A stretch of DNA of 54,718 bases, from the NCBI RefSeq assembly GCF_000223985.1, contig NZ_AFWV01000022.1, positions 1 to 54,718 on the forward strand. Reading direction: 5' to 3'. The position numbers were made by a program, and so were the translations under genes. Under the pieces are notes generated by a model. It was not told where the DNA came from and did no database searches. It worked only from the letters and a program-made list of their open reading frames with translations. The DNA comes from Thiocapsa marina 5811. GTDB taxonomy: Bacteria > Pseudomonadota > Gammaproteobacteria > Chromatiales > Chromatiaceae. Position 1 is the stretch's first letter, and the number at the start of each line of letters is the position of its first letter. Below are positions 31,322 to 48,991 of the stretch, one piece after another.

Positions 31322-31324
31322 GGC

Positions 31325-31407
31325 TGAACCGCGTCCGGTGCTTCCTTGATGGTTGCGGATTGCGACGGGCGTCGAGGCTAAAGTCGGACTTGGCGAGACG
31401 CAGTTCA
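31325..31407. repeat. AAACCGCG-terminated element A
   Basis: TGAACCGCGTC at the left end and GACGCAGTTCA at the right end are inverted copies at 10 of 11 positions. The core from AACC to the matching GTT is 79 bp. It fills most of the gap between the DUF3683 gene and the cupin gene. The interior does not match the other members. Confidence 0.65.
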
Positions 31408-31450
31408 GGTTCGGTTGTTTTGAATCCTTCCTCGACGAGGGCTGACCGGG

Positions 31451-31777
31451 ATGTTGCGCAACCTTTTTCAAGACCTCCCCCGGATCGATCGCGGCGAGGC
31501 GTTCGAGGAGCTGTTGCGCTGCTCCAACGTTCGGATCGAGCGCATCCTGAGCAGCGATCGCCCCGAGTCCGTCCTCTACGATCAGGTCCAGGACGAGTGG
31601 GTCTGTCTGCTGCAAGGCGAGGCGGAGCTCTGGGTCGACGGAGAGACGCTCACCATGCGCTCGGGCGACTATCGGTTCATCCCGGCGGGAACCCCGCATC
31701 GCGTGAACAAGACGTCGACCGACCCCCGCTGCCTTTGGTTAGCCGTCCATATTCACGACCATTCGACCGAAGCTTGA
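31451..31777 (+). CDS. Small cupin-domain protein
   Basis: 108 residues forming a single cupin barrel. The metal-site motifs are partly visible: QDEWVCLLQGEAELWVDG (first motif, with E in place of the HxH pattern) and the second motif with FIPAGTPHRVNKT. Related phosphoribosylaminoimidazole-type and other small cupins bind a metal and a small ligand; no reaction can be named. The next gene begins 10 bp downstream, so the two are probably one operon. ATG 31451 follows a GACCGGG stretch. Confidence 0.78.
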   Translation: MLRNLFQDLPRIDRGEAFEELLRCSNVRIERILSSDRPESVLYDQVQDEWVCLLQGEAELWVDGETLTMRSGDYRFIPAGTPHRVNKTSTDPRCLWLAVHIHDHSTEA

Positions 31778-31787
31778 GGGCGACCTG

Positions 31788-33002
31788 ATGGACCCGGCAC
31801 GCGACGCGATCCCGGATCAAGAACTGCGACCGCTCGTCGATCGTCTGCTGCTCGAGCAGGGGCGGCTCGATCCACTGGAGCTTCTGCTCGCGGCCGACCT
31901 GCTTGGCTACGAGGACTATGTCGCCTGGCGGACCGGGGGGCGGTCGGATCTGCAGGGGGTCCTGCGTGCCTCACCCAAGGCGATTGCTGGGTTCCTGGAG
32001 GATGCAGGGGTCTATGCTCGCGGACAGAAGCTCGTGGCCGTCGCGCTTTCGCACAACGCGTGGGGCGATCGGGAGCGTCCCTTGTCGATCGGTCCGCACA
32101 CGGAGCTGTCCCGCGCCTGCACGCTCGTCTATGCGCCGCCCCCGGAGCGTTGTCAGCTGGACCTGTTTCAGGACAGCACCGCGCTGCTGCTCGAGGAGGA
32201 GGTCCGCACGGCCTTGGTCGAGCACCGCATGGATCGTGCGCGCGATCGGGTCGCCCGATTGATGCACCATGAGCCGGGGCATCCAAGACTCGGCGGCTTT
32301 CTCCGTTTGATCCAGACCCTCGACGACGTCGATGCGGTCGGGCGCGACGGACGTGTCGAGGAACGATGGCGCGAGCTGGAAGGGATCGGGCCTTTGGCCG
32401 GAGAGCTGCTGGGTCATCGGGCACGCGATTTCCTGGGGACCCTCTGGGCGGGGCTGGCCGAGTGCTTGACCGGGCGTGCCTTCGGTCCGGGTTCGGGTGA
32501 CTTCCACGCGGCGATCGCCTGGACCCGGGCAGGGCGATGGGAGCGCGCGCGAGAGGCGATCGAGTCCGAGCCCGACTGGCTCGACCAACCGGTGCTGGTC
32601 CTCGTCCATGCCGAGGCCTGCTGGCGCGTTCGCGATCCGTTCGGTGCGCGCCGAGACTGGTTGTGGCTCTGTCGTGAATATCCGTCGGCAGCGGAGCGCG
32701 CCTTTCGTGCCCCGGCGTTTCCGGATCGTCGTCTGGCCGATCTCTGGGCGGCGTTCGGCGACCTCGGACTCGAGGACGAACTGGCGACCGAGGATTTCCC
32801 CGCCTGGCTTCTGTTGGAGGATCCGAAGGCCTTTGCGGTGATCCGCGAAACGGGCGACACGTCCAGCGACGATCGCGCGACCGCATACCGTCTCTTGCAT
32901 GCGCTTGTGAGCGGCGACGATACCATCGACCGGCGACGCGAGCTGGGCGAGATCCAACCAATTCTGCTGAAGCAGTTCTTGGCGTATCGAAGGCACGCTT
33001 AA
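31788..33002 (+). CDS. Uncharacterised helical-repeat protein, 404 aa
   Basis: I do not recognise a named family. The protein is rich in Leu, Ala, Arg and Glu, lacks a signal peptide and membrane segments, and reads as stacked amphipathic helices, possibly TPR-like, in its second half (AIAWTRAGRWERAREAIESE, VLVHAEACWRVRDPFGARRD). It starts 10 bp after the cupin gene with GAGGG upstream and is probably cotranscribed. It ends at 33002, just before a dense block of palindromes. A cytoplasmic scaffold or accessory role is possible but unsupported. Confidence 0.7.
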   Translation: MDPARDAIPDQELRPLVDRLLLEQGRLDPLELLLAADLLGYEDYVAWRTGGRSDLQGVLRASPKAIAGFLEDAGVYARGQKLVAVALSHNAWGDRERPLSIGPHTELSRACTLVYAPPPERCQLDLFQDSTALLLEEEVRTALVEHRMDRARDRVARLMHHEPGHPRLGGFLRLIQTLDDVDAVGRDGRVEERWRELEGIGPLAGELLGHRARDFLGTLWAGLAECLTGRAFGPGSGDFHAAIAWTRAGRWERAREAIESEPDWLDQPVLVLVHAEACWRVRDPFGARRDWLWLCREYPSAAERAFRAPAFPDRRLADLWAAFGDLGLEDELATEDFPAWLLLEDPKAFAVIRETGDTSSDDRATAYRLLHALVSGDDTIDRRRELGEIQPILLKQFLAYRRHA

Positions 33003-33115
33003 GCCGGCAGTCGAGCGGACAAAGGCGTCGCCTCGCCGAGCACGCAGAATGCGGCGGTACGGTTTACGCGTGCAACGCCGCGCAATTTCCGGCGCCCTTC
33101 GCACCCGGGTCCACG

Positions 33116-33169
33116 GCAGACTGAAGTCCGCCTCCCCGGGTGCCGACTGAAGTCGGCGTACCGGGGAGG
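33116..33169. repeat. Double REP-like palindrome
   Basis: GCAGACTGAAGTCCGC (33116-33131) is followed by GCCGACTGAAGTCGGC (33142-33157). The second is nested in a larger palindrome with arms CCTCCCCGG (33131-33139) and CCGGGGAGG (33161-33169). The ACTGAA core and CCCCGGG flank also occur at 10860-10908. Confidence 0.75.
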
Positions 33170-33194
33170 CAGTATCGAGACTTCCGGGGGACTC

Positions 33195-33274
33195 AACCGC
33201 GTCCAGAGCGAGATGCTCACTTTAGCGTGAGTTCGACGTCGGGTGCATCCACGGCTCTTAGCGGAGACGCGGTT
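33195..33274. repeat. AAACCGCG-terminated element B
   Basis: AACCGCGTC (33195-33203) is exactly inverted as GACGCGGTT (33266-33274), giving an 80-bp core. An AT-rich 25-bp spacer separates it from element C, forming a doublet. The interior shares no clear similarity with other members. Confidence 0.7.
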
Positions 33275-33299
33275 TCGAATTTTATATCTTTTAATACTT

Positions 33300-33385
33300 T
33301 AAACCGCGCCGGCTCCGAGAATGATCGGAGCCGGCGCGGCCAAACCAAATCAACAGACGACGCATGCCGCGCTGGGCGCGGTTTA
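33300..33385. repeat. AAACCGCG-terminated element C
   Basis: TAAACCGCGCC (33300-33310) is perfectly inverted as GGCGCGGTTTA (33375-33385). The right terminus supplies the TAA stop codon of the minus-strand gene ending at 33383. Inside lies a strong hairpin (33304-33339). Confidence 0.78.
33304..33339. terminator. Strong hairpin between convergent genes
   Basis: CCGCGCCGGCTCCGA (33304-33318) pairs perfectly with TCGGAGCCGGCGCGG (33325-33339) across a 6-base loop. There is no T-run, but the 15-bp GC-rich stem between two converging genes suits a transcription barrier. Confidence 0.55.
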
Positions 33386-33967
33386 GCGACACGGCGCAAA
33401 GAAGGCGTTGCTCATGGCCTCCTCGCACTGTTTCCCGCTCTCCGTGACGCGGCCTGGATCGGCTCCTTTAAGCCACTCCTCCTGTTCCATTTGACGGAGT
33501 TGGCGCGCGGCCTCGCAAGCGGGCTCCTGCCAACAGGTGCGGGCGGCGCCGCAGACTCGGAGCACCAGTTGCTCGCAAGGCGAGGCGCCCGTAAGGCGTC
33601 CGCCGGTCGGCTGCTTGGCCTCGCCTTCGTCGGCTTCGACCGCCTCCGGTGCTTCTGTGTCGGATGCGGCCGGCTCGCTCGGCGCGCCGCTCGGCGCCAG
33701 CATATCGGTCGTCGGGACCACGCGGCCGCCTTCGATGCGGATGACCGAGCCGTCTTCCAGTCGGTGTACGCCGTCCCAGAGTTGCGTGCGACGACCGTTC
33801 TGATCGAGGACCGGGCGGTTGGTGCGTGGATCGACCTCGACCTGACCGCCGCGTTGCAGGGGTGCTGTCCAGGGCTCGTCGGCATGAGCGTGGAAGACGA
33901 AGAGCAGAAGGATCGCGGGAACGGCGCCGAGGCATGCTGTCCAGGGCTGTCTTTCGATGTTGTTCAT
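33383..33967 (-). CDS. Exported cysteine-containing protein, unknown function
   Basis: 194 residues from ATG 33967, chosen because GGAGG lies directly upstream and a good signal peptide follows (AVPAILLLFVFHAHA, cleavage before DEPW). The first half has a short repeated-turn pattern, including LWDGVHRLEDGSVIRIEGGRV. A low-complexity Glu/Ala/Pro linker (~105-140) leads to a C-terminal helical region with six cysteines (PCEQ, RVCG, RTCW, PACE, KQCE, APCR), probably three disulfides. I do not recognise the family. It is the last gene of a minus-strand set of three exported proteins. Its stop codon lies inside repeat element C. Confidence 0.7.
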   Translation of the reverse strand: MNNIERQPWTACLGAVPAILLLFVFHAHADEPWTAPLQRGGQVEVDPRTNRPVLDQNGRRTQLWDGVHRLEDGSVIRIEGGRVVPTTDMLAPSGAPSEPAASDTEAPEAVEADEGEAKQPTGGRLTGASPCEQLVLRVCGAARTCWQEPACEAARQLRQMEQEEWLKGADPGRVTESGKQCEEAMSNAFFAPCR

Positions 33968-34071
33968 GGTCACCTCCGCTGACCTGATTACGGAACGATT
34001 CAAGGCAACATGAGCAGGTCGGTGTGGCGCGCTGCGCTTTGCCTAACGGACGAGCGTCATGCAGCGCGACC

Positions 34072-34866
34072 TCAGAGCCGATTCTCCATCACCAGAAACC
34101 AGGGCCGGCGCGTCACGGGCTTGAGCCGACCGCGGTCGTCGAGCTCGAGGACGCTCTTGGAGACCGAGTTGCGCACGTTCCCTCCGATGACGTCCAGTGT
34201 CTGGCCGTTTCTCCCGACCACGAGGTCGCAGTGGGTTTCCGCACCCTGGAGCATCCAGGCGCTGGTATAGCCGTCGACCGGTCGCAACGGCGTGCGGCCG
34301 CGCCCTGCGCAGACCAGGTCGCCCGGCTCGGGGCTGTAGTCCTGAATCCGCCGGGGGACGAAGTAGCGACCCGGATAGCTCGCCTCCTCGACCATCGATG
34401 AGAGATAGACCCAGTGGGCGCTCGCCGGGCGGAACTGGCTCGTCGGTACGCCCGCACTCTGCATCACCCAGCTGATGAAGGCGGCCGACCAGGGTTGCCG
34501 GCAGTCCAGTCCGTCGAGCGTCGGCTTGTTGACGGCACGCCAGTAGAGGTTGACCCGACTGACATGGGTGTAGTCGTCCTCCCAGGCGCCGACGTGAGGG
34601 ATGCTCTCCTCGTTGCCCTTGAAGACCACGACCTGGCGATCGAACTGCTCCCACTCGCGGGTTGCACGTTGGATCATCGCCTGTTTGAGCCCCGGGTTGG
34701 GCGAGGGCGCCCGGCCGATCGGGCGTCCGGCCCAGGTTCCGGGCGCCTCGCCGGGACGCGGGCCCGGGGCCCCGCAGGCGACCAACGCGAGGCAAACCGC
34801 GACAGAGGCTATTCCGAGCAGGGCCTGCTCGGGTCGGCATGGCACGGAGGGACAACTGCTGGGCAT
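34072..34866 (-). CDS. DUF2272 lipoprotein, NlpC/P60-like
   Basis: 264 residues with the lipobox LALVACG, so Cys31 should be lipidated. The rest fits DUF2272, a family related to NlpC/P60 and CHAP cysteine hydrolases. The likely nucleophile is C122 in DCRQPWSAAFISWVMQSAGV, followed by RPASAHWVYL and PGDLVCAGRG; H212 in AETHCDLVVG is the likely base. Such a protein could cleave peptidoglycan peptides in the periplasm. It lies between two other exported proteins on the same strand, with 104 and 73 bp gaps. The adjacent 604-residue protein shows a similar Cys/His arrangement. Confidence 0.8.
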   Translation of the reverse strand: MPSSCPSVPCRPEQALLGIASVAVCLALVACGAPGPRPGEAPGTWAGRPIGRAPSPNPGLKQAMIQRATREWEQFDRQVVVFKGNEESIPHVGAWEDDYTHVSRVNLYWRAVNKPTLDGLDCRQPWSAAFISWVMQSAGVPTSQFRPASAHWVYLSSMVEEASYPGRYFVPRRIQDYSPEPGDLVCAGRGRTPLRPVDGYTSAWMLQGAETHCDLVVGRNGQTLDVIGGNVRNSVSKSVLELDDRGRLKPVTRRPWFLVMENRL

Positions 34867-34939
34867 GGGACGGACTCCGTTTGGGCGCAGCCGGGCGTGG
34901 GTGTCGAATGCGTCTGTTCAGCCGATCGAGAAGGTTGCG

Positions 34940-36754
34940 CTAACGCGGCGGGCGGACCGCCTCGCGGAACCAGGGACGATACTCCTCCATGCGCGCACGC
35001 TGGTCCGCCGGTGCACGCCGCCGACAGGTCGACTCATCGGGCGAGCCCGGGGATGCGCCCCAGCGCCGCTCCACGCAGTCGTTCGGGTTGTAGGCCATCT
35101 CAAGCTCGGCGCGGCGGCTGAAGATCTCTCCGAGACTCAGCCGCCAGGGCGTGCCGTCGCTGCGGGTGTAGGTGATGAACCGCTCGCCCATTCTCTGTGC
35201 ATTCATCCGTTCGATCCGCGCGGCGGCATCGCTCGGCGAGCGGCCCTGCAGCACGAAGAGCTCCGGGTAACGACGGATGCGCTCGGGCAGGTCTGCGAGC
35301 ACCTTCATGGCGATCAAGAGCCGCATGTCGCGCGAGGGCGTGGCGTAATCCTCCCAGGGGCCGGTGGTCTCGAAGATGGCGGGTCCGCTCGGCATCGGGA
35401 TGGTGATGCCGGGTCGGCTGCGCACGTAGGCCTCGCCGTTCTCGACCGAGGTCACGCGTGTTTCGAGCTGCTCCATTAAGGCGTCCAGCGTCGCGGTGTA
35501 GGCAACCTCGGGTTCGAGGCCGCGCGGGTTGACGAGCCGTTGCATGCGGGCATAGAAGTCTGCCGGCGACAGTGCGGCTTGCTCGAGGGAGAAGGGCGGC
35601 AGACCGGATCGACCGTCGATCGCGTTGTTGGGCATCTGGCGCACGCCGCTGCCTGTCTGAACCACCGGCCTGAACGCCTTGAAGCCCGGTCCCGCGCTCG
35701 GGGTTTGGGCGAACAGAAAGGTGCCCTCCCAGAACCGCTTGCGCGTCACGGAGTTGTCCGGCTGGGCGTCGACGGCGAGCAGGAGACCGCTCTCCCGGCC
35801 GCGTTGGGGCAGCCATTTTACGATCACCATGATGTGACCGTAGGGGTCGGCGAAGATGGTCCCGGGCCAGAGTGTCGAGCGATCGAGCGCGACCGGATAG
35901 AAGTCGGTCGCGTCGTCGCGAAGCGCGGTGCGTGCACTGCCTGAATGGACCGTGTTCATCATCGAGCGGCTGGCCTCGCGAAAGACCTCGGCGGATGCCC
36001 CCTGGTCCATGGAAGCGCCGACGAAGCGCGTCTCGGCGACAGGTGCCTGGCAGGTCGGAGCGCTGCTCCGGCTCCCGCGCGTGCAGGGTCGGTAGGCGAC
36101 CGGCAGGCCGAGCTTCCAAGCGAAATAGGTCCGCAGGAAGTAGGGCAGGTCGGCGCAATCAGGCTCGGCTGGGAGGCTGTGGTCCTCGCCGTTGCCGAGA
36201 TAGTTGAAGAGCAGGTTTCGCGCGGGGTCGCGCAGCACGGGGCCGAGCGAGTCGAAGCTCAGCAATTGCTCGGGCGGGGCCTCGAAGAGGTGCTCGATCC
36301 AGGCCGAGTAGAATGCCTCCGTCGCCAGGTCCCACTCGCCGCTGCCGCGCTTGCTCCCTTGCGTGCGATCTCTGCCGCCGACCCTCACCTCGGCGCAACC
36401 CGCGACCCGCCCTGCGCGCGTGGTTTCGATGCGATAGATCCCGGCGACCGGGCGAAACTGTGTCCCGTAGAGACTCCATGGCGGTCCGCCGCCGTGGGCT
36501 GTGCGCAAGCTGGTTTGGCGGCCGGCGGGGTCCGTGATCAGTACCTCGTCGAGATCGGCGTCGGTAGCGACCGCGATGATCTCCAGCGGCGCGCCCGGAC
36601 TTGGTTGCAGCGGAGCGGTCCAGATCCGCACCTCCTTGCCTTCTCGGCAGGCGTCCGCGGCGCGCGCCGTGTCGGGGAGCACGGCCCCGAGCAAGGAGAG
36701 ACCGACGATGGCCAACGATGGGATCAGCAATCGGATGGAGCGAGGAGTCGACAT
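34940..36754 (-). CDS. Exported 604-aa protein with Cys/His hydrolase-like core
   Basis: 604 residues with a signal peptide (hydrophobic ~8-30, TARAADAC). I cannot name the family. Around C200 the sequence DCADLPYFLRTYFAWKLGLP looks like the nucleophile helix of NlpC/P60 or transglutaminase-like enzymes. About 100 residues on, STLWPGTIFADPYGHIMVIV gives a PG-x-n-GH motif with H307, the expected second catalytic residue. The segment before (~40-130) is beta-rich. The C-terminal 250 residues are mostly helical. Together with the DUF2272 gene it suggests a periplasmic peptide- or wall-processing set. The catalytic call is inference. Confidence 0.7.
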   Translation of the reverse strand: MSTPRSIRLLIPSLAIVGLSLLGAVLPDTARAADACREGKEVRIWTAPLQPSPGAPLEIIAVATDADLDEVLITDPAGRQTSLRTAHGGGPPWSLYGTQFRPVAGIYRIETTRAGRVAGCAEVRVGGRDRTQGSKRGSGEWDLATEAFYSAWIEHLFEAPPEQLLSFDSLGPVLRDPARNLLFNYLGNGEDHSLPAEPDCADLPYFLRTYFAWKLGLPVAYRPCTRGSRSSAPTCQAPVAETRFVGASMDQGASAEVFREASRSMMNTVHSGSARTALRDDATDFYPVALDRSTLWPGTIFADPYGHIMVIVKWLPQRGRESGLLLAVDAQPDNSVTRKRFWEGTFLFAQTPSAGPGFKAFRPVVQTGSGVRQMPNNAIDGRSGLPPFSLEQAALSPADFYARMQRLVNPRGLEPEVAYTATLDALMEQLETRVTSVENGEAYVRSRPGITIPMPSGPAIFETTGPWEDYATPSRDMRLLIAMKVLADLPERIRRYPELFVLQGRSPSDAAARIERMNAQRMGERFITYTRSDGTPWRLSLGEIFSRRAELEMAYNPNDCVERRWGASPGSPDESTCRRRAPADQRARMEEYRPWFREAVRPPR

Positions 36755-37285
36755 GGACTAAACCGGCCCGGCGCGTGGTGTGTCGAGTCTATCCCGAGCG
36801 GGCCCGCGATGGGAGTGGTCTCGGGTATGCCCGGGAGCGCACGTAGGGTGCGGTGAGGATACGAACCGCACCATGTGGCCATCGAGCCGCGTATCGGTGC
36901 GGTTCCTGCGTCACCACACCCTACGCCTTTGTTCTCGCACACGTCGGGTGCGGTGAGGAGACGAACCGCACGGCGCGATCATCGAGCCGCCTATCGGTGC
37001 GGTTCCTGCGTCACCACACCCTACGCCTTTGTTCTCGCCCATGTCGGGTGCGGTGAGGAGACGAACCGCACGGCGCGATCATCGAGCCGCCCAACGGTGC
37101 GGTTCCTGCGTCACCACACCCTACGCCTTTGTTCTCGCCCATGTCGGGTGCGGTGAGGATACGAACCGCACGGCGCGATCATCGAGCCGCCTATCGGTGC
37201 GGTTCCTGCGTCACCACACCCTACGCCTTTGTTTTCGCACACGTCGGGTGCGGTGAGGAGACGAACCGCACCGTGCGATTGCAGC
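36755..37285. other. Gap of 531 bp dominated by a tandem repeat
   Basis: No gene is credible here. Frames across the repeat encode the same arginine-rich string over and over as a by-product of the 100-bp period. See the tandem-repeat entry. Confidence 0.7.
36846..37276. repeat. 100-bp tandem repeat, 4.3 units, each an imperfect hairpin
   Basis: Units start with GGGTGCGGTGAGGA at 36846, 36946, 37046, 37146 and 37246; the fifth is cut off after about 30 bp. Units differ by only a few bases. Each has two inverted halves: GGTGCGGTGA...CGAACCGCAC at one end and GTGCGGTTCC...TCACCACACCC at the other. A transcript could fold each unit into a hairpin. It lies between two divergent-to-tandem minus-strand genes. 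Confidence 0.92.
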
Positions 37286-38476
37286 TCAGCCTCGCCGAAG
37301 GTCGCGGTCGACAAGGGCGGCGACAACCAAGTCCCCCCAGACGTTGACGGCCGTGATCGGATAGTCGAAGAAACGATCGACGACGAGATAGAGGGCGAGA
37401 TAGGTCTGCGGCAGGCCGAGCAGGTCGAGCATGAAGGCCATCAGTGCAATGCCGCCTCCGGGGATGCCGGCGGTGCCGGCGGAGGAGGCCATGGTGAGCA
37501 GAACGATGAAGAGCGCCTGCGCGGCACTGAGATCAACCCCGGCGAGCTGGGACATAAAGATGAGCAGGATCGACTGGTAGAGGGCGGATCCGTCCATGTT
37601 GAGCGTAGCGCCCAAGGGCAGACTGAAGGCCGTGACACGCTCGCTCACGCCCGTGTCTTCCAGTGCCTGCTTGGAGACCGGATAGGTCGCGGCGCTCGAG
37701 GCGGTGGAGAGCGCGGTCATTAGCGGGGCACGGCAGGCGGCGACGAAGCGCCAAGGCGAAGACCCCGTGCGCAAACGAAACAGGGTCGGCAGAAAGACCC
37801 CCGCATGCAGCACCGCGGCCAAGGCCACCGCCCATACGAATGCGTGCAGCTGGAAGACCTCGGCCCAGTCCATCCCGGCGAGTCCGTCGTAGATCAAGGC
37901 CGCGATGCCGACGGGTGCAAGTGCAAGAACCCCGCGCAGGACCTGCATCAGCAGGGCGTCCGCGGCGCGTGCACCGGCGAGCAGGGTCTCGCGCTGTTCT
38001 CCTGCGATGCGCCGCGAGGCAATCGCCAACACGATGGCAACGAACACGATGTGCAGGATGTTCCCGTCCGCGAGCGAGGCGAAGAGGTTGCTCGGGACGA
38101 GGTTCGCAACTAGGTGCTCGATACTAAAACTTGCCGCGCCCGGCTCGACCTGCTCGAGCCGGAGCAGCCCCGCCGGGAGCTCGCGCGAGAACGCCAGCCC
38201 GATCAGTGTCCCCAGCCCGGCGGCAACGGCGGAGGTCGTGACATAGTAGAGCAAGGTCCGTCCGCCGATGCGCCGCAGCTCGCGCCCGCCCGAGAGCGAG
38301 GCATAGATGGAGACCAGGATCAGCGGCAGGATCAGCAGCTTGAGGATGGAGATAAAGACCTGCCCGATCCAGGCCACGTTGGGCGCACCCTCCGGGACGA
38401 GCAGCGCGAGCACGATGCCGAGCAGCAAGCCGACGGGGACCGAGTAGAGTCGGCGCAAGGGCCCAGTGATTGGCAT
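37286..38476 (-). CDS. Dicarboxylate/amino acid:cation symporter (DAACS)
   Basis: 396 residues with about eight hydrophobic segments and two re-entrant regions typical of the DAACS (DctA/GltP) family in the inner membrane. Diagnostic stretches are STASSAATYPVS (first re-entrant serine motif), PLGATLNMDGSALYQSI (NMDG cation/substrate site) and SSAGTAGIPGGGI (second re-entrant loop). It would import C4-dicarboxylates or acidic/neutral amino acids with Na+ or H+. It is slightly shorter than DctA (~428 aa). The upstream MurE-like gene ends 21 bp before it, so the two are likely in one operon. The substrate cannot be fixed from sequence alone. Confidence 0.9.
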   Translation of the reverse strand: MPITGPLRRLYSVPVGLLLGIVLALLVPEGAPNVAWIGQVFISILKLLILPLILVSIYASLSGGRELRRIGGRTLLYYVTTSAVAAGLGTLIGLAFSRELPAGLLRLEQVEPGAASFSIEHLVANLVPSNLFASLADGNILHIVFVAIVLAIASRRIAGEQRETLLAGARAADALLMQVLRGVLALAPVGIAALIYDGLAGMDWAEVFQLHAFVWAVALAAVLHAGVFLPTLFRLRTGSSPWRFVAACRAPLMTALSTASSAATYPVSKQALEDTGVSERVTAFSLPLGATLNMDGSALYQSILLIFMSQLAGVDLSAAQALFIVLLTMASSAGTAGIPGGGIALMAFMLDLLGLPQTYLALYLVVDRFFDYPITAVNVWGDLVVAALVDRDLRRG

Positions 38477-38497
38477 GTCGCTCCTCGCCGGCTCGCG

Positions 38498-39937
38498 TCA
38501 GACCCAGCCGAGGCGCAGAAGGTTGCGCTCGATCTCGTCCTGATCGCTGTAGGGCGTCTTGTGGCCTTTGGCATCGAGATAGCGCTCGTGACCCTTGCCG
38601 GCGACGAGGGCGACCCAGGGCTCGTCCTCCGGTCGCTCGGCAAGGAAGTCGAACAGGCGTGCGATCGCGCGCGGGCGCTCGACCACCACCTCGCGACCCG
38701 TCTCGGGCATGCCCGTCAGGATATCCGCGATGATCCGTTCCGGGTCCTCGAAGCGCGGATTGTCGGAGGTCACGATCGTGTGGTCCGAATGACGCGCCAC
38801 CGCGGCACCCATCAGCGGGCGCTTGAAACGATCGCGGTCGCCGCCGCAGCCGAAGAGGCTGGCGACCTGCGCCCGGGGGAAGGCCTCGCGGATCGCGCTC
38901 AGGATGGTCTCGAGTGCGTCCGGGGTGTGGGCGAAGTCGACCACCAGCGTGCGGTTGCCGACGACGCGGCACTCGAACCGCCCGTCCACCGCGCTCAGAT
39001 GCCGCCAGTCCTCGCGCGCGCCCGGTCCCAAGATCCCGTCGGCCAAGGTAACGGCGAGCGCATAGTTGCGACGGTTGTGCGCGAGCGCGAGGAATGGCTT
39101 GGCGGCGAGCGCCTCGGCGCCGAGCGTCGCGGCAGGCAGGACTTCGACTGGAACCCGCGGTTGGCCATTCTCACGCAGACGCTCGGCGACATCCGAGCTG
39201 GTCGTGTAGAGACGCCCCCCGTCCGCGATCATGTCCAGGATGCGTGCCTTGGCCGCGAAATAGGCCGCCTCGCCGCCGTGATAGTCCAGATGATCCTGCG
39301 TGAAGTTGGTCCAGGCGGCGTTCTGAAGCGGGATGCCGTGCGCGCGCCCTTGATCCAAGGCGTGGCTGCTGACCTCCATCGCGACCACCGCGTAGCGGTC
39401 GCGATGGGCGTGCAGCAGACGGCGCAGCTCGATCAGCGGCGGCGAGGTGAATCCGGTATTGACCAGCGGCTCGCCCGCCAAGGAGAGGCCGAGCGTCCCG
39501 ACCGAGAGGACAGGCCGCCCATGGGCCGAGAGGATCGCCTCCAGATACTTCACCGTGGTGGTCTTGCCGTTGGTGCCCGTGACGCCCAGAAAGACCGTGC
39601 CGTCGGTGTCCAGCGGATAGATGCAATCGCAGAAGCGCGCAACGACCTCGGCCCAATCGCCGAGGTGCGTGACATAGATGCCCTTGCCGGGCAGTCGCTC
39701 GACACCCTCGATCATGCGGTTGGTGACCAGCACGGAGCAGGCGCTATCGGCGAGATAGCGCTCGATGATCTCGGTATCGGTGCGCCCGTCGTCGAACCGC
39801 TGGAAGAAGAGGATCGAGCCGGCATCGCAGGCATTCGCGCGCCATTGGATGTTGTCCAAGGGGCCGGGCGTGGCCGGTTCGCGCCTCCAGGCGAAATCGA
39901 GCGCGGACAGCAGATCGGATAGGGCGTGATTCGGCAT
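38498..39937 (-). CDS. MurE-like Mur ligase without the usual UDP-MurNAc N-domain motif
   Basis: 479 residues from ATG 39937, where the family-like sequence begins. The ATPase core is intact: GTNGKTTTVKYLEAIL (P-loop), NFTQDHLDYHGG with the downstream carbamylated-Lys position in YFAAKARIL, VDFAHTPDALE, and the DNPRFEDPERI motif which in MurE binds the meso-diaminopimelate side. The N-terminal ~100 residues do not show the DSR...GxLF(V/A)A UDP-MurNAc-binding signature of ordinary MurE. The gene is outside any dcw cluster and is coupled to a cation symporter. It probably ligates an amino acid to an unknown acceptor; it could also be a second MurE. Confidence 0.8.
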   Translation of the reverse strand: MPNHALSDLLSALDFAWRREPATPGPLDNIQWRANACDAGSILFFQRFDDGRTDTEIIERYLADSACSVLVTNRMIEGVERLPGKGIYVTHLGDWAEVVARFCDCIYPLDTDGTVFLGVTGTNGKTTTVKYLEAILSAHGRPVLSVGTLGLSLAGEPLVNTGFTSPPLIELRRLLHAHRDRYAVVAMEVSSHALDQGRAHGIPLQNAAWTNFTQDHLDYHGGEAAYFAAKARILDMIADGGRLYTTSSDVAERLRENGQPRVPVEVLPAATLGAEALAAKPFLALAHNRRNYALAVTLADGILGPGAREDWRHLSAVDGRFECRVVGNRTLVVDFAHTPDALETILSAIREAFPRAQVASLFGCGGDRDRFKRPLMGAAVARHSDHTIVTSDNPRFEDPERIIADILTGMPETGREVVVERPRAIARLFDFLAERPEDEPWVALVAGKGHERYLDAKGHKTPYSDQDEIERNLLRLGWV

Positions 39938-40895: not shown

Positions 40896-41153
40896 TTCGC
40901 GCACGGGTGGGAGCAGTATGGACGAAACGCTGGGTTACCCCCAACCCCTGTGACCGCTCGTGTGGATAAGCTGTTCGCGCGTGCCTTAACCCGCGGGTGG
41001 GGCACGGCGGATCGGTAGCCGGTCAAGGATTGCCCGCTTGTGGTTATTCGGCGTCGAGTGCGGAACGGTCGAGGCCGGTCCGCTCCTCCGCGCTCCGGCC
41101 TCGGATCTCAAGTATCATGTCGGATCAAGAGCCAGAATACAGAGTCACGTCCC

Positions 41154-44100
41154 ATGCTCGTCCTCCGTGGTGCCCCCGCCCTTTCAGAGTTCCGTCTTCA
41201 GAAGCTTGCCGGCAGGCTGCGCGAGCAGATCGGCGTGCCGATCGAGGTTTATGCCGAGCATGTCCATTTCGCCGCTCTGGCAGGCGAGCTGGCCGAGGAT
41301 CAGCGCGGGATCCTGGAGCGGCTCCTGCGCTACGGTCCCGCCTTGCCGAGCCACGCGCCGGTCGGCCGGCTCGTTCTGGTCGTGCCGCGACCGGGCACCA
41401 TCTCGCCCTGGTCGTCGAAGGCGACCGACATCGCGCACAACTGCGGACTCGATGGCCTAGAGCGACTGGAGCGCGGCACAGCTTACTATCTGACGGCGGA
41501 CGGCGGCTCACTCGACGCGGAGACCGTCGAGCAGGCTGCTGCATTCCTGCACGACCGTATGACCCAAGTCGCGCTCTTCGACTTGGCCGAGGCCGAGCGG
41601 CTGTTCGCACACGCCGAGCCGCGTCCGGTGCGCCGAGTCGCGCTCGGCGCGGACCCGGAGGCGGCGCTGGGGCAGGCGAACCGCGAGCTGGGCCTCGCGC
41701 TCTCGCCCGACGAGATCGCCTATCTCGCCGGCAGCTTCGCCGCACTCGAGCGCGACCCCACCGATGTCGAGCTGATGATGTTCGCCCAGGCCAACTCCGA
41801 GCATTGTCGGCACAAGATCTTCAACGCCCGCTGGGATATCGACGGCGAGCCGCAGCCGCACTCGCTCTTTAAGATGATTCGCCACACGACGGACGTTTCT
41901 CCGGATGGCGTGCTCTCCGCCTACAAGGACAACGCCGCCGTTATCGAGGGGTGGGAGGGGCGCCGTTTTCTCGCCGACCCCGCAACCGGGATCTATGGCG
42001 AGCACGAGGAAGCCATCCAGATCCTCATGAAGGTCGAAACCCACAACCACCCGACCGCGATCGCACCGGATCCGGGTGCGGCGACCGGCTCGGGCGGTGA
42101 GATCCGCGACGAGGGCGCGACCGGGCGGGGCGCCAAGCCCAAAGCCGGTCTCTGCGGCTTCTCGGTCTCGGATCTGCGCATCCCCGGTTTCGGGCAGCCC
42201 TGGGAGCCGCCAGAGGCCGACTACCACGGAAAGCCGGGCCGGATCGTCTCCGCACTCGAGATCATGCTCGAAGGGCCGATCGGTGCGGCTGCGTTCAACA
42301 ACGAGTTCGGCCGACCGAATCTGACGGGTTATTTCCGCACCTTCGAGCAGGCCATCCCCGGCCCGAACGGCGCGACCGAGCTGCGCGGCTATCACAAGCC
42401 CATCATGCTCGCCGGCGGCATCGGCAACATCCGCTCCGAGCATGTCGCCAAGGACAGCTTTCCCGTCGGCACGGCGCTGATCGTGCTCGGCGGCCCGGCG
42501 ATGCTGATCGGGCTCGGTGGCGGGGCGGCCTCGAGCATGGCCTCGGGCGCTTCGGCAGAGGATCTCGACTTCGCCTCGGTGCAGCGCGCCAACCCGGAGA
42601 TGCAGCGCCGTTGCCAAGAGGTCATCGACCGCTGTTGGGCGCTCGGCGAGGACAATCCCATTCTCTTCGTCCACGACGTCGGCGCCGGCGGGCTGGCCAA
42701 CGCGCTGCCCGAGCTGGTTCACGACGCCGGACGCGGCGGACGCTTCGAGCTGCGCGCCGTACCCAACGCCGATCCGGGCATGTCGCCGATGGAGATCTGG
42801 TGCAACGAGTCGCAGGAGCGCTATGTCCTGGCCGTCGCGGCGGAGCGGCTGGCGCAGTTCGAGGCGATCTGCGCGCGCGAGCGTTGTCCGCATGCGGTGG
42901 TCGGAACCGCGACCGAGGATGAGCATCTGATGCTCGGCGACACCCATTTCTCGGATACCCCGATCGACATGCCCATGTCGCTCCTCTTCGGCAAGCCGCC
43001 CAAGATGGAGCGGGATGCCCTCTCCGGACAGCCGCCGCGCCCGCCGCTGCGCACCGCCGAGATCGATCTGCGCGAGGCGCTCGATCGCGTGCTGCGTCTG
43101 CCCACGGTCGCCGACAAGTCCTTCCTGATCACCATCGGGGATCGCAGCATCACAGGTCAGGTCGCACGCGATCAGATGGTCGGACCCTGGCAGATCCCGG
43201 TCGCCGACTGCGCCGTGACCATCAGCGACTATCGCGGCATCACCGGCGAGGCGATGGCGATCGGCGAGCGCACGCCGCTCGCCCTGCTCGATGCCCCGGC
43301 CTCCGGGCGCATGGCCGTCGGCGAGGCCATCACCAATCTCGCAGCCGCGCGCATCGCGTCGATCGGGGATATCAAGCTCTCCGCCAACTGGATGGCCGCC
43401 GCCGGCGATCCGCGCGAGGATGCTCGGCTTTACGCCACTGTCCGCGCCGTCGGTCTGGAGCTCTGCCCGGCACTCGGGATCGCCATCCCGGTCGGCAAGG
43501 ACTCGATGAGCATGAAGACGGTCTGGGAGGATGCCGCGGGTGTGCGGCACGCGATGTCCGCGCCGCTCTCGCTGATCGTCTCCGCCTTTGCCCCGGTGCT
43601 CGACGTGCGCGCGACCCTGACGCCGCAACTGCGAACCGATCAGGGCGACACCGATCTCATCCTCGTCGATCTGGGGCAGGGCCGGAACCGTCTCGGCGGG
43701 TCCGCGCTCGCGCAGGTCTACGGTCAGCTCGGTGACGACGGGCCGGATCTGGATGCACCGGACCTGCTCAAGCGCTTCTTTGCAGCGATTCAAGAGCTTC
43801 AAGACGAGGGGCTGATCCTCGCCTACCACGACCGCTCGGACGGCGGACTCATCACCACGCTCTGCGAGATGGCCTTTGCCGGACGCTGCGGGGTCGATGT
43901 CGATCTGGCCGCGGTCGGTCCCGATGACCTCTCGGCCCTGTTCAGCGAAGAGCTGGGTGCGGTGATCCAGGTTCGCCACACGGAGACGGACGACGCGCTC
44001 CAGATCCTGGAATACCACGGTCTGGCCGAGTACAGCCCGGTGATCGGCATGCTCGACGACAGCGATCAGATCCGCGTCTGCCGCCGCTGTCGACCGCTCT

Positions 44101-45059
44101 TCGAGGCGAGTCGCACCGAGCTTCAGCAGGTCTGGTCCGAGACGAGTTTCCGGATGCAGTCCCTGCGCGACAACCCCGAGTGCGCGGCCGAGGCCTATGC
44201 GCGCATCGCCGAGCCGGATCCCGGTCTCCATGCGGAGCTGACCTTCGATCCGGATGATGACCTGACCGCGCCCTATGTCGAGCGCGGCGCACGCCCGCCG
44301 ATCGCCATCCTGCGCGAGCAGGGGGTGAACGGGCAGGTCGAGATGGCCGCGGCCTTCCATGCGGCGGGCTTCGAGTGCGTGGACGTGCATCTGTCCGACA
44401 TCATGGCCGGGCGCGTCGAGCTCGCGCGCTTCCGCGGCCTCGCCGCTTGCGGCGGCTTTTCTTACGGCGACGTGCTGGGGGCGGGGGAGGGCTGGGCGAA
44501 GTCCATCCTCTTCAACCCGCGCGCACGCGATCAATTCCAGGCCTTCTTCGAGCGCAGCGACACCTTTGCGCTCGGCATCTGCAACGGCTGCCAGATGCTC
44601 TCCAACCTGCGCGAGCTGATCCCGGGCGCGGACCATTGGCCGCATTTCGTGCGCAACCGCTCAGAGCAGTTCGAGGCACGCACACTGATGCTCGAGGTTC
44701 GGGAGACGCCGTCCGTCGTGCTCGCCGGGATGGCCGGATCGCGCATGCCGATCGCGGTGGCGCACGGCGAAGGCCGAGCAGAGTTCCGCGATGCCGAGCA
44801 TCTGGCCGCGGCGCGCACGAGCGTGGCGACGCGCTACATCGAGAACGATGGCCGGGTCGCCGAGCGGTATCCCGCCAACCCCAACGGCTCGCCCGAGGGC
44901 ATCGCCGGCCTGACGACGCTCGACGGACGCGTGACCATCATGATGCCGCACCCCGAGCGCGTCTTTCGGTCCGTTCAGAATTCGTGGCATCCGGATGAGT
45001 GGGGTACGGACGGCCCTTGGATGCGTCTATTCCGCAATGCGCGCGTGTGGGTGGACTAA
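41154..45059 (+). CDS. purL: Phosphoribosylformylglycinamidine synthase
   Basis: 1301 residues, close to the 1295 of E. coli PurL, the large single-chain form that converts FGAR plus glutamine and ATP to FGAM in purine synthesis. I start at ATG 41154 ([18 protein letters not shown]), where the family begins. Visible landmarks are [19 protein letters not shown] (linker/ATP site), [11 protein letters not shown], and the class I glutaminase at the C-terminus: nucleophile C1143 in [17 protein letters not shown] and [12 protein letters not shown] with the catalytic His-Glu. The stop TAA falls in TAAACCGCGTCC, a solo copy of the interspersed terminus. arfB follows 23 bp downstream. Confidence 0.97.
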
Positions 45060-45082
45060 ACCGCGTCCAGATCAATTGCGTG

Positions 45083-45505
45083 ATGTTGCAGATCTCCAAG
45101 CGTATCCGAATCGACGAGACCGAGCTGAGCGAGCGGTTCATCCGCTCGCCCGGACCCGGCGGCCAAAACGTCAACAAGGTCGAGACGGCGGTCCAGTTGC
45201 GGTTCGACGTCGGACGCTCGCCCTCGCTCCCGGAGGACGTGCGCGAGCGTCTAAGACGCCTCGGCGGCCGGCGGATCGATTCGGACGGCGTCCTCATGAT
45301 CGAAGCACACCGCTATCGCACCCGCGAGCGCAATCGCGCCGATGCGCGAGCCCGACTCGCCGCCCTGATCGCTCAAGCAGCGGTGCGGCCGAAGACACGC
45401 ATCGCGACTCGACCCACCCGCGCCTCGACCGAGCGACGCTTGGAGACCAAGCGGAAACAATCCAGCAGCAAGCGGATGCGCCGCGCCCCGTCGGATCACG
45501 ATTAG
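45083..45505 (+). CDS. arfB: ArfB, peptidyl-tRNA hydrolase for ribosome rescue
   Basis: 140 residues, same length as E. coli ArfB (YaeJ). The GGQ motif is in RSPGPGGQNVNKVETAVQLR, near residue 27, and the C-terminal tail is basic (KTRIATRPTRASTERRLETKRKQSSSKRMRR), as needed to bind the empty mRNA channel. It hydrolyses peptidyl-tRNA on stalled ribosomes lacking a stop codon. It begins 23 bp after purL on the same strand. The short leader between them is occupied by the AACCGCGTCC half-site at 45059-45068. Confidence 0.93.
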   Translation: MLQISKRIRIDETELSERFIRSPGPGGQNVNKVETAVQLRFDVGRSPSLPEDVRERLRRLGGRRIDSDGVLMIEAHRYRTRERNRADARARLAALIAQAAVRPKTRIATRPTRASTERRLETKRKQSSSKRMRRAPSDHD

Positions 45506-45591
45506 GAATCGGCTTTGCCGGGTGAGGTTTTCCCTAAAACCCGGGCAATGCTCCGGTGACGGGCGGACGCAGACCGAGCGTCCCTGAGGCC

Positions 45592-45771
45592 CTACTCGCT
45601 CACCTCGACAACCGCCCCCGTACCGTCCGGCGCGACGATGATCACCAGTCTGCCGAGCGTCGGGTGGCGTGCGGTGACCACGCTGAATGCGGGTAGGCGC
45701 ATCTCGCCGATCAACTCGCTTTCGTCCTTCAGGTCTGAGATCAGCGCTGCTTCGGCTTCCAATAAACGCAT
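45592..45771 (-). CDS. Small hypothetical protein, 59 aa
   Basis: A complete 59-codon frame from ATG 45771 to TAG 45592: MRLLEAEAALISDLKDESEL..., ending VVEVSE. No family is recognised. A single weak GGGTGA precedes the ATG. The composition (helical first half, then a VVTARHPTLGRLVIIVAPDG strand-turn-strand) is that of a genuine small fold rather than random frame. It is antisense to the arfB transcript direction and sits just upstream (on its own strand) of a repeat doublet. Could be a chance ORF. Confidence 0.5.
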   Translation of the reverse strand: MRLLEAEAALISDLKDESELIGEMRLPAFSVVTARHPTLGRLVIIVAPDGTGAVVEVSE

Positions 45772-45797
45772 CTGTCACCCCCGATCCTGTTGTGGGC

Positions 45798-45885
45798 CTA
45801 AACCGCGTATGGCTCCACTATGCTCTGTTTTTGCAGGGACGAAACCCGCGATGATCCCCGGAACGCCCTGCACGACGCGGTTTAG
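45798..45885. repeat. AAACCGCG-terminated element E
   Basis: CTAAACCGCGT (45798-45808) is perfectly inverted as ACGCGGTTTAG (45875-45885). Core length 82 bp. TGCAGGG and CCCTGCA inside form a further inverted pair. It forms a doublet with element F, 23 bp away. Confidence 0.78.
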
Positions 45886-45908
45886 AATTCTTCGGGCTAT
45901 TTCGCATC

Positions 45909-46003
45909 CTGAGCCGCGTCGCGCCAAGCTCGTGTGTCGAGCCGACGCATACATTCACGCGACCCGACCCGACCCGACCCGAACCCAACCGGACGCGGTT
46001 CAG
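45909..46003. repeat. AAACCGCG-terminated element F with GACCC tandem
   Basis: CTGAGCCGCGTC (45909-45920) and GACGCGGTTCAG (45992-46003) are inverted with one mismatch. Four GACCC repeats at 45961-45980 lie inside. Core length is 89 bp, the longest member. Confidence 0.65.
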
Positions 46004-46005
46004 CC

Positions 46006-46497
46006 CTACATCGCCATATCCAGATCGTCCTGGATCTCGGCGATGCCGGCGAGTGCGCATTCCTCGTCGGTCTCCCCCGAGGGTGCACCGCTGACGCCGA
46101 CGCCTGCCACAAGCGACGAGCCGCCGACCAGGACGGGAACACCGCCCGCGGACATGACGAGACCCTCGACACGCCCGATCGGCGTATCCGCCCGATCGGC
46201 CATGGCCGAGGTTGCGGCATTGAAGTTGACCGCGGTAAAGGCCTTCATCTTGCTGATCGGCACCGTGATCGGCGCGGCGATGGTGTCGCGCAGTGTCACC
46301 TGCACCGTGCCTTCGCGATCGACGACGGTGACAGCGATCTGGATCCCCTTCTCGCGACATTCCTCGATCGCCCCTTGGGCGATCTTCACCGCAGAATCCA
46401 TCGACAGACGCTGCAACGGGACCACCATAGGTCCGTCGGCGAGGGCCGATCCGCAGACCAATACAGTGGCGATGAGTACGGGAATGGTCTTCTTCAT
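46006..46497 (-). CDS. GlcG/HbpS-type heme-binding protein (DUF336), exported
   Basis: 163 residues with a signal peptide (MKKTIPVLIATVLV...ALADG) and a strong AGGAGGAG upstream of ATG 46497. The DUF336 core is seen in AVTVVDREGTVQVTLRDTIA, KAFTAVNFNAATSAM and GGVPVLVGGSSLVAGVGVSGAPSGETDEECALAGI. HbpS-type members bind heme or act as periplasmic sensors, and GlcG sits in glycolate operons; neither role is demonstrated here. It is a single gene, with ispG further upstream on its strand. The stop is right next to repeat element F. Confidence 0.85.
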   Translation of the reverse strand: MKKTIPVLIATVLVCGSALADGPMVVPLQRLSMDSAVKIAQGAIEECREKGIQIAVTVVDREGTVQVTLRDTIAAPITVPISKMKAFTAVNFNAATSAMADRADTPIGRVEGLVMSAGGVPVLVGGSSLVAGVGVSGAPSGETDEECALAGIAEIQDDLDMAM

Positions 46498-46654
46498 CTC
46501 TCCTCCTCTTTTCCGTTAGGGCATTCTTATCGTTAGTGCTTTGGATCAATATCTCGACGACGCGTACCCGCGGATCGGGGTGATTCAAATCGCCGTTACA
46601 CACGAATCATTGCTTCTCCGGGCATCGTCGAAGCCGAGCCGACCGGCGCGTCGG

Positions 46655-47887
46655 TCACTGCGCCCGATAGTGGGTCTCGATGTATTCGTCGACCATCCGC
46701 TTGAACTGCTCGGCGATCCCGTCGCCCTTGAGTGTGGCGACCTTCTCGCCGTCGACATAGACGGGTGCGGACGGGCGCTCGTCGTTGCCGGGCAGGCTGA
46801 TGCCGATATTGGCGTGCTTGCTCTCGCCGGGTCCGTTCACGACGCATCCCATCACTGCGACCTGCATGGTCTCGACCCCTGGAAACCGCGTGCGCCAATC
46901 CGGCATCTGCTCGCGAAGGTAGGCCTGAATGTCTTGCGCCAGGTGTTGGAAGGTATCGCTGGTGGTGCGTCCGCAGCCCGGACAGGCGGTGACCATGGGG
47001 GCGAAGGAGCGCATGCCCATGGTTTGGAGGATCTCCTGCGCGACCACCACCTCGCGGGTGCGCGCCTCACCCGGTGCAGGGGTCAACGAGATGCGGATGG
47101 TGTCGCCGATGCCTTCCTGAAGCAGCACGGACAAGGCGGCGGTGGATGCGACGATCCCCTTCGATCCCATGCCGGCCTCGGTCAGGCCCAGATGCAGGGC
47201 ATAGTCGCCGCGATCGGCCAGCATGCGATAGACCGCGATCAGATCCTGCACGCCGCTCATCTTGCAGGACAGGATGATGCGATCGCGCGGCAAGCCGACC
47301 TGCTCGGCGCGCTCGGCGCTCGAGATGGCCGATTCCACCATCGCCTCGCGCATCACCTGATCGGCATCGCGCGGCTCGGGCGAGCGTGCGTTCTCGTCCA
47401 TCATCCGCACGATCAGGTCGGGATCCAGGCTGCCCCAGTTCACCCCGATGCGCACCGGCCGATCGTAGCGGCAGGCGATTTCGACCATGGTCGCGAACTG
47501 GCTGTCCTTCTTCTCGCCCCGCCCGACATTGCCCGGGTTGATGCGGTACTTCGCCAGCGCCTCCGCGCACTCGGGGTAATCCGTAAGCAGACGGTGGCCG
47601 TTGAAATGAAAGTCGCCGACCAACGGCACGCTGCACCCTTGTGCGTCCAGCGCCTCGCGGATCGCCGGGACCGCGCGGGCCGCGGACTCGTGATTCACGG
47701 TGATTCGCACCAACTCCGAGCCGGCACGGGCAAGCTCGGCGACCTGTTGGACCGTGGAGGCGATATCCGCGGTGTCCGTATTGGTCATGGACTGGATGAC
47801 GATCGGGGATTGACCGCCGACGGTCACCGGTCCGATGCGAACCGGTACGGTTCGGCGTCTTTGAATCGGGAATCGAGTTGGGCTCAT
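46655..47887 (-). CDS. ispG: 4-hydroxy-3-methylbut-2-en-1-yl diphosphate synthase (flavodoxin)
   Basis: 410 residues. IspG converts MEcPP to HMBPP in the MEP isoprenoid pathway with a [4Fe-4S] cluster. The N-terminal TIM barrel begins [20 protein letters not shown]. The C-terminal reductase-like domain carries the cluster ligands in [20 protein letters not shown] and [18 protein letters not shown]. Length fits proteobacterial IspG (~370-420). The Nudix gene lies 27 bp upstream on the same strand and may be in one transcript. Start ATG 47887 gives [13 protein letters not shown], a basic N-terminus common in gammaproteobacterial IspG. Confidence 0.97.
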
Positions 47888-47914
47888 AGTGCCTTTGCCG
47901 CTGCAGCGGCCCTG

Positions 47915-48799
47915 TCAGTTGGTCGGAGTCGAGCGTCGATCCGACGAGGGCAATGGGGAACGCAGACCCTGGACGATCGCGACATAATGCGGGTCGTCTT
48001 GAGGAATCAGTCCGTGGCGGATTAGAAAATCGATGATGACCAGGTTACAGTTGAGCTTGAAGTCATCGGTCTCGCGGACGATCTCCGCAACCTCCTTCAC
48101 CGGCACGCGATAGAAGGCTTCGACCTCCCCGTCGGTGCAGCGCGGCTCGAAGTCCTCCGGAAGCTCGAGATCGTAGCAGAACATGACGTCCGGCTTCAGC
48201 CCGCGCTCCGAATCGCGGCAGTAGGTGACGGCTCCGACGGCCACCGCCCGGTCCGCAAGGGCGGGGGGCATGCCGGCCTCCTCCGCGCACTCCTTGCGCA
48301 GATTCTCGATCAGACCGACACCGTGGGGCAACCCACCCGCAACAAGGTTATCGAGCCGCCCCGGATAGAGACGGCGATCGGCGGCGCGCCGGCCGATCCA
48401 CATCTCGATGCCCCGTGCGGTCCGCACGAAGCCGTTCAGATGCTGACCGAAGGCGCGCATCCCGAAGAAGGGTGCGCAGGCCCGATCGACCAGGCAGCGC
48501 GCCGCCTCGCGCCCGCCGGCGGTGACAGGGTACTGCTCGCCGTGCAGATAGGGGATGACGCCCTCGTCGACGAGGCCTCGCGTGACCTCGGCCAGCGCCG
48601 AGGTGCAACCCTCGAAGTCATCCGGCGTCTCGATCCACTCGACCGTCGTCTCAGTCACACGGAACCGTGTCGGCCAGCGCCGAAGCTCCTCTGCAGCGCT
48701 ACGCCGCAGGCTCCCGAGACGTTCGCCCCGTCGGATGAAGGGAACAAACGCGTCCGGCTCCCAGGCGTTACAGGCGTCGATCTTGTCGAGATAGCTCAT
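47915..48799 (-). CDS. Nudix hydrolase with DUF4743 domain
   Basis: 294 residues. The N-terminal DUF4743 region (~1-120) precedes a Nudix domain with the box GGLPHGVGLIENLRKECAEEAGM, the GX5EX7REXXEEXG pattern with RKEC in place of the usual R-E spacing. The family includes the Nudix part of yeast Tnr3, which cleaves oxidised thiamine diphosphate, but substrate is not certain here. ATG 48799 is preferred; the frame continues upstream to a TTG at 48829. Repeat element G begins 3 bp upstream of the ATG, so no normal ribosome binding site is visible, which is unusual. Confidence 0.85.
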   Translation of the reverse strand: MSYLDKIDACNAWEPDAFVPFIRRGERLGSLRRSAAEELRRWPTRFRVTETTVEWIETPDDFEGCTSALAEVTRGLVDEGVIPYLHGEQYPVTAGGREAARCLVDRACAPFFGMRAFGQHLNGFVRTARGIEMWIGRRAADRRLYPGRLDNLVAGGLPHGVGLIENLRKECAEEAGMPPALADRAVAVGAVTYCRDSERGLKPDVMFCYDLELPEDFEPRCTDGEVEAFYRVPVKEVAEIVRETDDFKLNCNLVIIDFLIRHGLIPQDDPHYVAIVQGLRSPLPSSDRRSTPTN

Positions 48800-48801
48800 T
48801 G

Positions 48802-48888
48802 ATGAACCGCGTCTTGGAGTGTCTTGCAACCTAATTCAGGTCACGCCCGGCCCGCTTCCCTCCGATACCTCGGCAGGACACGGTTCAT
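48802..48888. repeat. AAACCGCG-terminated element G
   Basis: ATGAACCGCGTC (48802-48813) and GACACGGTTCAT (48877-48888) are inverted at 11 of 12 positions; core 81 bp. It lies directly before the Nudix start codon and forms a doublet with element H, 15 bp away across an A-rich spacer. Confidence 0.72.
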
Positions 48889-48903
48889 TTGATAAAAAAA
48901 TCG

Positions 48904-48991
48904 TAAAACCGCGCCCGCTGAAACGCCCGTTAGTGACTCCAGTCTTCGATCTCGATGAAGACCGAGCCTATCTCGAGGAGGCGCGGTTTTA
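48904..48991. repeat. AAACCGCG-terminated element H
   Basis: TAAAACCGCGCC (48904-48915) is perfectly inverted as GGCGCGGTTTTA (48980-48991); core 82 bp. Its right terminus supplies the TAA stop codon of mazG (48989-48991). Confidence 0.78.

Follow-up and report, generated by a model that had tools for sequence, protein, structure and literature searches.

What are the inverted termini that recur, some 80 bp apart, between positions 31,325 and 48,991 of a 54,718-nucleotide stretch of Thiocapsa marina 5811 (contig NZ_AFWV01000022.1; this whole stretch is called the window below)? A preliminary description of the sequence had listed seven such pairs, running from AACC to GGTT around seemingly unrelated interiors. 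All seven were recovered in place, and the remeasured cores of 79, 80, 82, 82, 89, 81 and 82 bp agreed with those reported before. They probably represent a family of TA-duplicating, non-autonomous miniature inverted-repeat transposable elements (MITEs) of Chromatiaceae, with a heterodimeric layout like that of dimers of repetitive extragenic palindromes (REPs). G000 denotes the genome of the window (5.59 Mb), other G numbers denote relatives' genomes, and L numbers are stretches of DNA.

Modules, interior families and units

The strict pattern, with 55-65 bp between ends, occurred three times in the window, while 100 dinucleotide shuffles gave a mean of 0.00 and a maximum of 0. Genome-wide, AACCGCGYC-N45-75-GRCGCGGTT had 350 matches in 5.59 Mb and the reversed pattern none, which upholds the earlier view that the spaced ends form a real family. 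When each end was allowed up to one mismatch, a search of 1,637,718 bases of the genome found 205 elements of 72-92 bp, 197 of them at 78-84 bp with a peak at 80-82 bp, compared with 14 and 4, respectively, in a reversed-sequence control. The cluster, unit and context counts below refer to these 1.64 Mb.

Each module is closed by an 11-12-bp stem, (Y)TRAACCGCGYC / GRCGCGGTTYA(R). Among 312 distinct elements, mirror pairing extends from about -3 to 8 relative to the start of the core (YTR-AACCGCGYC) and ends abruptly, position 8 being paired in 94% and position 9 in only 23%. The search motif covered positions 0-8, position 7 being free for Y/R, but not positions -1 to -3. The pair at -1 is A-T in 236 elements and G-C in 49; at 7 it is T-A in 202 and C-G in 88. 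The two ends of a module are unlike, as the P end runs on as CRGMGCG..ATGC (consensus AACCGCGYCCRGMGCG..ATGC) and the Q end does not.

The impression of unrelated interiors holds for most copies in the window, but not for the genome: 130 of the 197 interiors fell into four families (A 68, B 34, C 14, D 14). Among the 67 unclassified ones, 34% carried the P-end motif (at least six of nine letters), against 3.6% after shuffling. These shared interiors had been overlooked, as had the tail-to-tail pairs and the stop-codon position described below.

Units are 80 or about 190 bp long, non-coding and dispersed. There were 141 (86 single, 53 paired and 2 triple); in the unit and context counts, units such as window 45801-46000, in which a module falls outside the range of 76-86 bp, were scored as singles. 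The gap within pairs was 26-28 bp in 45 of 53 cases, and spacers of 22-30 bp (n=50) were 83% AT. All 40 fully classified pairs joined an A module to B (24), C (8) or D (8), tail to tail and with P ends outward; in twelve further pairs neither half was classified, and in one pair only one half was. The full unit would thus measure about 188-190 bp, an 80-82-bp family A module being joined to B, C or D, tail to tail, over an AT-rich spacer of about 27 bp. One such unit, window 33192-33385, has end-to-end matches at many places in G000 and its relatives. Beside the 43 classified singles, AT-rich DNA (>70%) flanked the Q end in 17 cases and the P end in none. Because it lies on the Q side and never on the P side, many singles, and perhaps most, are likely to be decayed pairs; the remaining singles may have arisen by slipped deletion between repeated ends or may move as single modules.

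At L117:7519-7541 a perfect palindrome, CTAAACCGCGCCGGGCGCGGTTTAG, appears to be a module pared down to its stem via loss of the interior.

Distribution and insertion sites

A pattern scan of named genomes gave at least 100 matches. Among the 80 listed, 70 belonged to Thiocapsa, Thiobaca, Thiocystis, Lamprocystis, Thiodictyon or Chromatiaceae and 10 to scattered other bacteria, and the flanks of several Thiocapsa units matched G000 at about 90% identity. Nine of 38 genomes, the own one included, contained matches; all nine belong to the own genus, which was represented by 11 of the 38. With the reversed control, two of the 38 had one match each. A stricter, family-wide scan matched 19 of 146 genomes and 9 of 61 genera, with no reversed-control match anywhere. 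Here, five of six genomes of the own genus held 143-484 copies and the sixth a single copy, four other genera (one genome each) held 242, 81, 52 and 47, and nine further genomes held 1-3.

Mobility is recorded at two sites with TA duplication. The clean one reads CGT-TA-GGCG in Thiocapsa roseopersicina DSM 217 (L078) and CGT-TA-[188 bp]-TA-GGCG in G000 (pair L106:12766-12953). The other, near-clean, compares Thiocapsa sp. S07.Bin152 (L026:2613-2801) with L135 of G000 and shows TA duplication with few nearby differences. At L106:845, G007 has TTAG where G000 has TTA followed by an element, the right flank aligning poorly. At window 45059, G000, G003 and G007 retain one unit end and G004 the whole unit. 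According to the mechanism that we propose, a TA-targeting DDE transposase would act in trans on the outward P ends, which would serve as terminal inverted repeats of about 22 bp, and would insert the unit at YTAR sites.

Repeated insertion at a single stop codon is suggested by L106:845-926 and its orthologues L276 and L278, where the module at the same gene end varies among congeners: G000 has an A module, G003 a D-like one and G001 a nested one. In G001 (L166, about 1361-1501), the module orthologous to 48805 is interrupted by a different repeat of about 140 bp, which is flanked on each side by ACGCGACC, apparently an 8-bp duplication.

Gene ends and stem conservation

The 141 units comprise 85 between co-directional genes, 45 between convergent and 7 between divergent ones, 2 inside called genes and 2 at the edge of a stretch. 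Of the intergenic DNA, 24% (71,411 of 299,770 bases) lies between divergent genes, but of the 137 intergenic units only 7 do. A stop codon lies within 15 bp of 95 of these 137, a start codon within 15 bp of 28. At 66 of 175 facing gene ends, the element's terminal TRA is itself the stop codon (TAA 52, TGA 13, TAG 1); the stops of all called genes are TGA 813, TAA 223 and TAG 206. The minus-strand called gene 33383-33967, for example, takes its stop codon from the end of the adjoining A module, and the unit remnant at 45055 holds the TAA (45057-45059) of the upstream gene. Unoccupied YTAR sites number 1391 in intergenic DNA, 180 in stops and 733 in coding DNA. Because only 180 lie in stops, stops seem over-used as targets, in a comparison that sets ends against sites and to which selection against promoter hits may contribute. 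Insertion into the TA of a TAA or TAG stop would be harmless, because the element's first A restores TAA.

Alignments with congeners were made for ten places, and 11 modules from seven of these places were counted with 5-8 sequences each (window 33195, window 50206 and L106:845 remaining uncounted). A row was dropped if either stem arm had more than two gaps. In the window, the rows kept of all rows, G000 included, were 7/9 for 31327, 6/8 for 45801, 7/8 for 45912 and 8/8 for both 48805 and 48907; elsewhere they were 7/7 for L135:12956, 7/9 for L135:15689 and 15793, 7/9 for L106:2738 and 2901, and 5/9 for L106:3890. Cells departing from the column majority amounted to 91 of 1809 in stems and 792 of 4729 in interiors. 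Pairwise divergence, from which G000 was excluded since its elements were first found by their stems, was 0.090 in stems (348/3867) and 0.269 in interiors (2709/10082), an approximately threefold gap; third codon positions of three nearby genes diverged by 0.20, 0.20 and 0.25.

Stem changes were also coordinated. At 8 of 132 stem pairs, distributed over eight modules, Watson-Crick pairs differed on both sides between species. Four of these modules lie in the window: stem position 3 of 31327 (four C-G, G004 T-A, G000 C.A, one C.C), position 1 of 45912 (five A-T, G007 G-C, G000 G.T), position -1 of 48805 (seven G-C, G010 A-T) and position 7 of 48907 (seven C-G, G007 T-A). When right arms were redealt in 5000 permutations, paired cells averaged 802.6 against 817 of 897 observed and double-change cells 4.7 against 11, no run reaching either observed value; 15 runs reached eight pairs.

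Old stems may be retained because a hairpin, probably at the DNA level, brings a benefit at the 3' end of a gene or cannot be lost there without harm. More specifically, hundreds of mobile palindromes might have turned into DNA hairpins that selection maintains at gene 3' ends. The stem would supply a stop codon and a cruciform-capable boundary, and its pairing would be held by DNA-level compensation while the remainder of the element drifts. In that case, a lineage-specific mobile element would mark where many transcription units of a genome end. We offer this more specific proposal tentatively and regard it as possible rather than probable.

The copies in the window are listed in Table 1. 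The 10-bp CGACC-type expansion in the 89-bp core (45912-46000) is absent from the aligned relatives. Just before the unit at 33195 stands a second kind of dispersed repeat, about 125 bp long and containing a palindrome of its own; six copies of it were aligned. At gathering threshold, the only Rfam match in the window is a tRNA (51042-51115). Upstream of the first module, window 27131-31318 (+) encodes a 1396-aa protein in which a GlcD-like FAD oxidase part is fused to a TfrB/GlpC-like iron-sulfur part, all NCBIfam matches being under curated cut-offs.

Table 1. Modules, spacers and a unit remnant in the window, with copies of the second repeat
Feature	Position	Strand	Remarks
Single unclassified module, core 31327-31405 (79 bp)	31324..31408		5 bp past stop of gene ending 31321; retained in G000 and six relatives
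Family B module, P end left, left half of composite unit	33195..33274	+	Interior family
AT-rich spacer of composite unit, 27 bp	33275..33301		
Family A module, P end right, right half of composite unit	33302..33383	-	Interior family
Remnant P end (AAACCGCGTCCAGA) of lost unit	45055..45070	+	G004 has whole pair there (L170:2942-3129)
Unclassified module, core 45801-45882, first half of pair	45798..45885		Common to five relatives; deleted in G008
Spacer, 29 bp	45883..45911		
Unclassified module, core 45912-46000 (89 bp), second half of pair	45909..46003		
Unclassified module, core 48805-48885, first half of pair	48802..48888		Retained in seven relatives
AT-rich spacer, 21 bp	48886..48906		
Unclassified module, core 48907-48988, second half of pair	48904..48991		Adjoins 3' end of minus-strand mazG-like gene 48989-49789
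Copies of second repeat, about 125 bp	window 33076-33189 (minus); L135:13468-13594; L106:9691-9810; L201:12797-12927; L231:18725-18849; L214:17442-17586		

Alternative explanations and known systems

Among the options raised in the preliminary description, the best fit is an old MITE in which only the ends are under selection, in view of the TA-duplicated empty sites, the copy number and the slow and compensating stems. Several observations weigh against it. Clean or near-clean empty sites account for only 2 of 24 candidate rows, the others being diverged, partial deletions, remnants or unalignable. About one fifth of elements have a TG/CA boundary instead of TA (position -1: 18 G, 73 A, n=92), and position -3 pairs in just 69% of the 312 elements. 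The gene calls come from a home-made codon-based caller, the search by stems favours intact elements, and the permutation takes no account of the species tree. Stem protection is slight in some modules, such as L106:2901 (stem 0.145, interior 0.235), where some retained rows look non-homologous and inflate the stem count, and the covarying pair of L135:12956 is A.C in most sequences. In addition, no transposase with matching ends was found: none of 27 loci of three Pfam families in G000 is bounded by elements, and among 84 P ends in 1.64 Mb, 10 of them outside units, no facing pair lies 0.2-6 kb apart by a strict P-end motif, which missed the ends at L225.

The 27 loci rejected as mobilisers comprise Y1_Tnp (8), DDE_3/IS630 (6) and DDE_Tnp_1 (13). 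Elements do lie near some transposase loci (L127, L184, L189), and the IS630 copies of G000 end differently (TATACCGG.../TATACTCAG...). Two far-apart end pairs considered as insertion sequences enclose no transposase: L225:15856-19494 contains a MoxR-type AAA gene and a DUF2126 gene, and L218:4039-6872 contains TacA1-like and HI1420-like antitoxin genes. At L189:2679-2760, a variant module with both arms altered, TAAAGCGCGTCC...GGACGCGCTTTA, abuts the end of a repeated DDE_Tnp_1 insertion sequence.

The location of units at stop codons and between convergent genes would also suit a role in RNA after insertion, as 3'-end terminators, exonuclease barriers or RNase III sites, and a processed RNA hairpin had been among the options suggested earlier. 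Such a role appears rather unlikely, and that option found no specific support. Constraint on RNA should favour G.U over A.C, whereas co-directional units read in the transcribed orientation have 38 G.U and 31 A.C among 1428 stem cells; as the two are about equal (judged by eye), the wobble counts do not favour an RNA role. Moreover, a stem starting in a stop codon would presumably be melted by terminating ribosomes, and single-sequence folds of the four family consensus sequences had no common interior fold.

The inverted dimers (53 pairs among 141 units) and their compensatory changes also bring to mind REP dimers, REP doublets forming hairpins (REPINs) and bacterial interspersed mosaic elements (BIMEs), palindromic modules in inverted pairs that would move as single strands by REP-associated tyrosine transposases (RAYTs, TnpA-REP), with the stem as the recognised hairpin. 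In the accessible parts of the respective papers, REPINs are reported as inverted pairs in extragenic positions with compensatory changes (PMC3116915), and most GTAG and CGTC REP families are said to prefer heterodimers, CGTC REPs being without a dedicated transposase (PMC3733652). The eight Y1_Tnp loci of G000 could be candidates for such an activity; however, none is bounded by elements, and only one has an element in its 3.3-kb locus, near the edge. We consider this explanation unlikely, since the TA duplication at the clean empty site counts against RAYT mobilisation and no conserved unpaired GTAG or CGTC tag stands beside the stem, the flanks past -3/+3 being unconserved. The CGTC seen here sits within the stem, its T/C variation paired across, and the module measures 80 bp, against 20-40 bp for REPs in the text available from PMC3733652.

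The stems might instead have been homogenised by mutation and not by selection, if hairpin-templated repair copied one arm onto the other. This would yield in situ compensatory double changes like those found. By reasoning, though, arm copying should not slow the stems, which diverge about three times less than interiors, and it would be expected to lengthen them, while pairing stops after position 8. We therefore regard it as quite improbable. Paired protein sites on one DNA face, another early suggestion, do not alone explain the covariation of the two ends. Integron attC sites have RYYYAAC/GTTRRRY core sites and belong to cassette arrays served by an integrase; dispersed pairs and TA duplication argue against attC identity.

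As for the favoured MITE interpretation, the available sections of two sources describe TA-type MITEs (Correia/NEMIS, RUP, ERIC) as small, dispersed and non-coding, with terminal inverted repeats, TA ends, target duplication and stem-loop potential (PMC2229807, Table 1; PMC10969869). Small size, non-coding nature, dispersal, inverted ends, TA at the ends, target duplication and stem-loop potential are thus common to both. Unlike them, the full unit here combines two dissimilar modules that are closed by separate stems, and there are several interior families. Furthermore, RUP is tied to IS630-Spn1 in the part of PMC2229807 at hand, whereas no related insertion sequence was found here in the 27 loci of three families.

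With REPINs and BIMEs, as far as the accessible text describes them, our units share inverted palindromic pairs, conserved ends, compensation and frequent heterodimers; in REPIN spacers, too, sequence is less conserved than length and pairing, and compensatory changes occur (PMC3116915, in part). Compensation and heterodimer preference are therefore already known in other families. TA duplication, the missing tag beside the stem and the lack of an element-bounded RAYT argue against membership in the REP/REPIN class, as does the larger module.

Titles and abstract openings, with subscription journals mostly outside coverage, gave no account of this family. In the portions available, the Thiodictyon syntrophicum genome paper mentions no repeats other than clustered regularly interspaced short palindromic repeats (CRISPR), and the GTAG/CGTC REP paper (PMC3733652) names neither Thiocapsa, Thiocystis, Allochromatium nor any Chromati- taxon; a term search of the Thiocapsa bogorovii paper had no match. 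Nor was a frequent element-end stop codon met in the parts seen of the comparison literature on MITEs and REPs.

If the MITE interpretation is right, the family would provide a natural system for tracing the fate of bacterial MITEs after insertion across several related species, with stems kept, in part through compensation, and interiors free, and would allow selection on such elements as DNA hairpins to be tested. Its exchangeable two-module layout recalls heterodimeric REP dimers, but with TA duplication.

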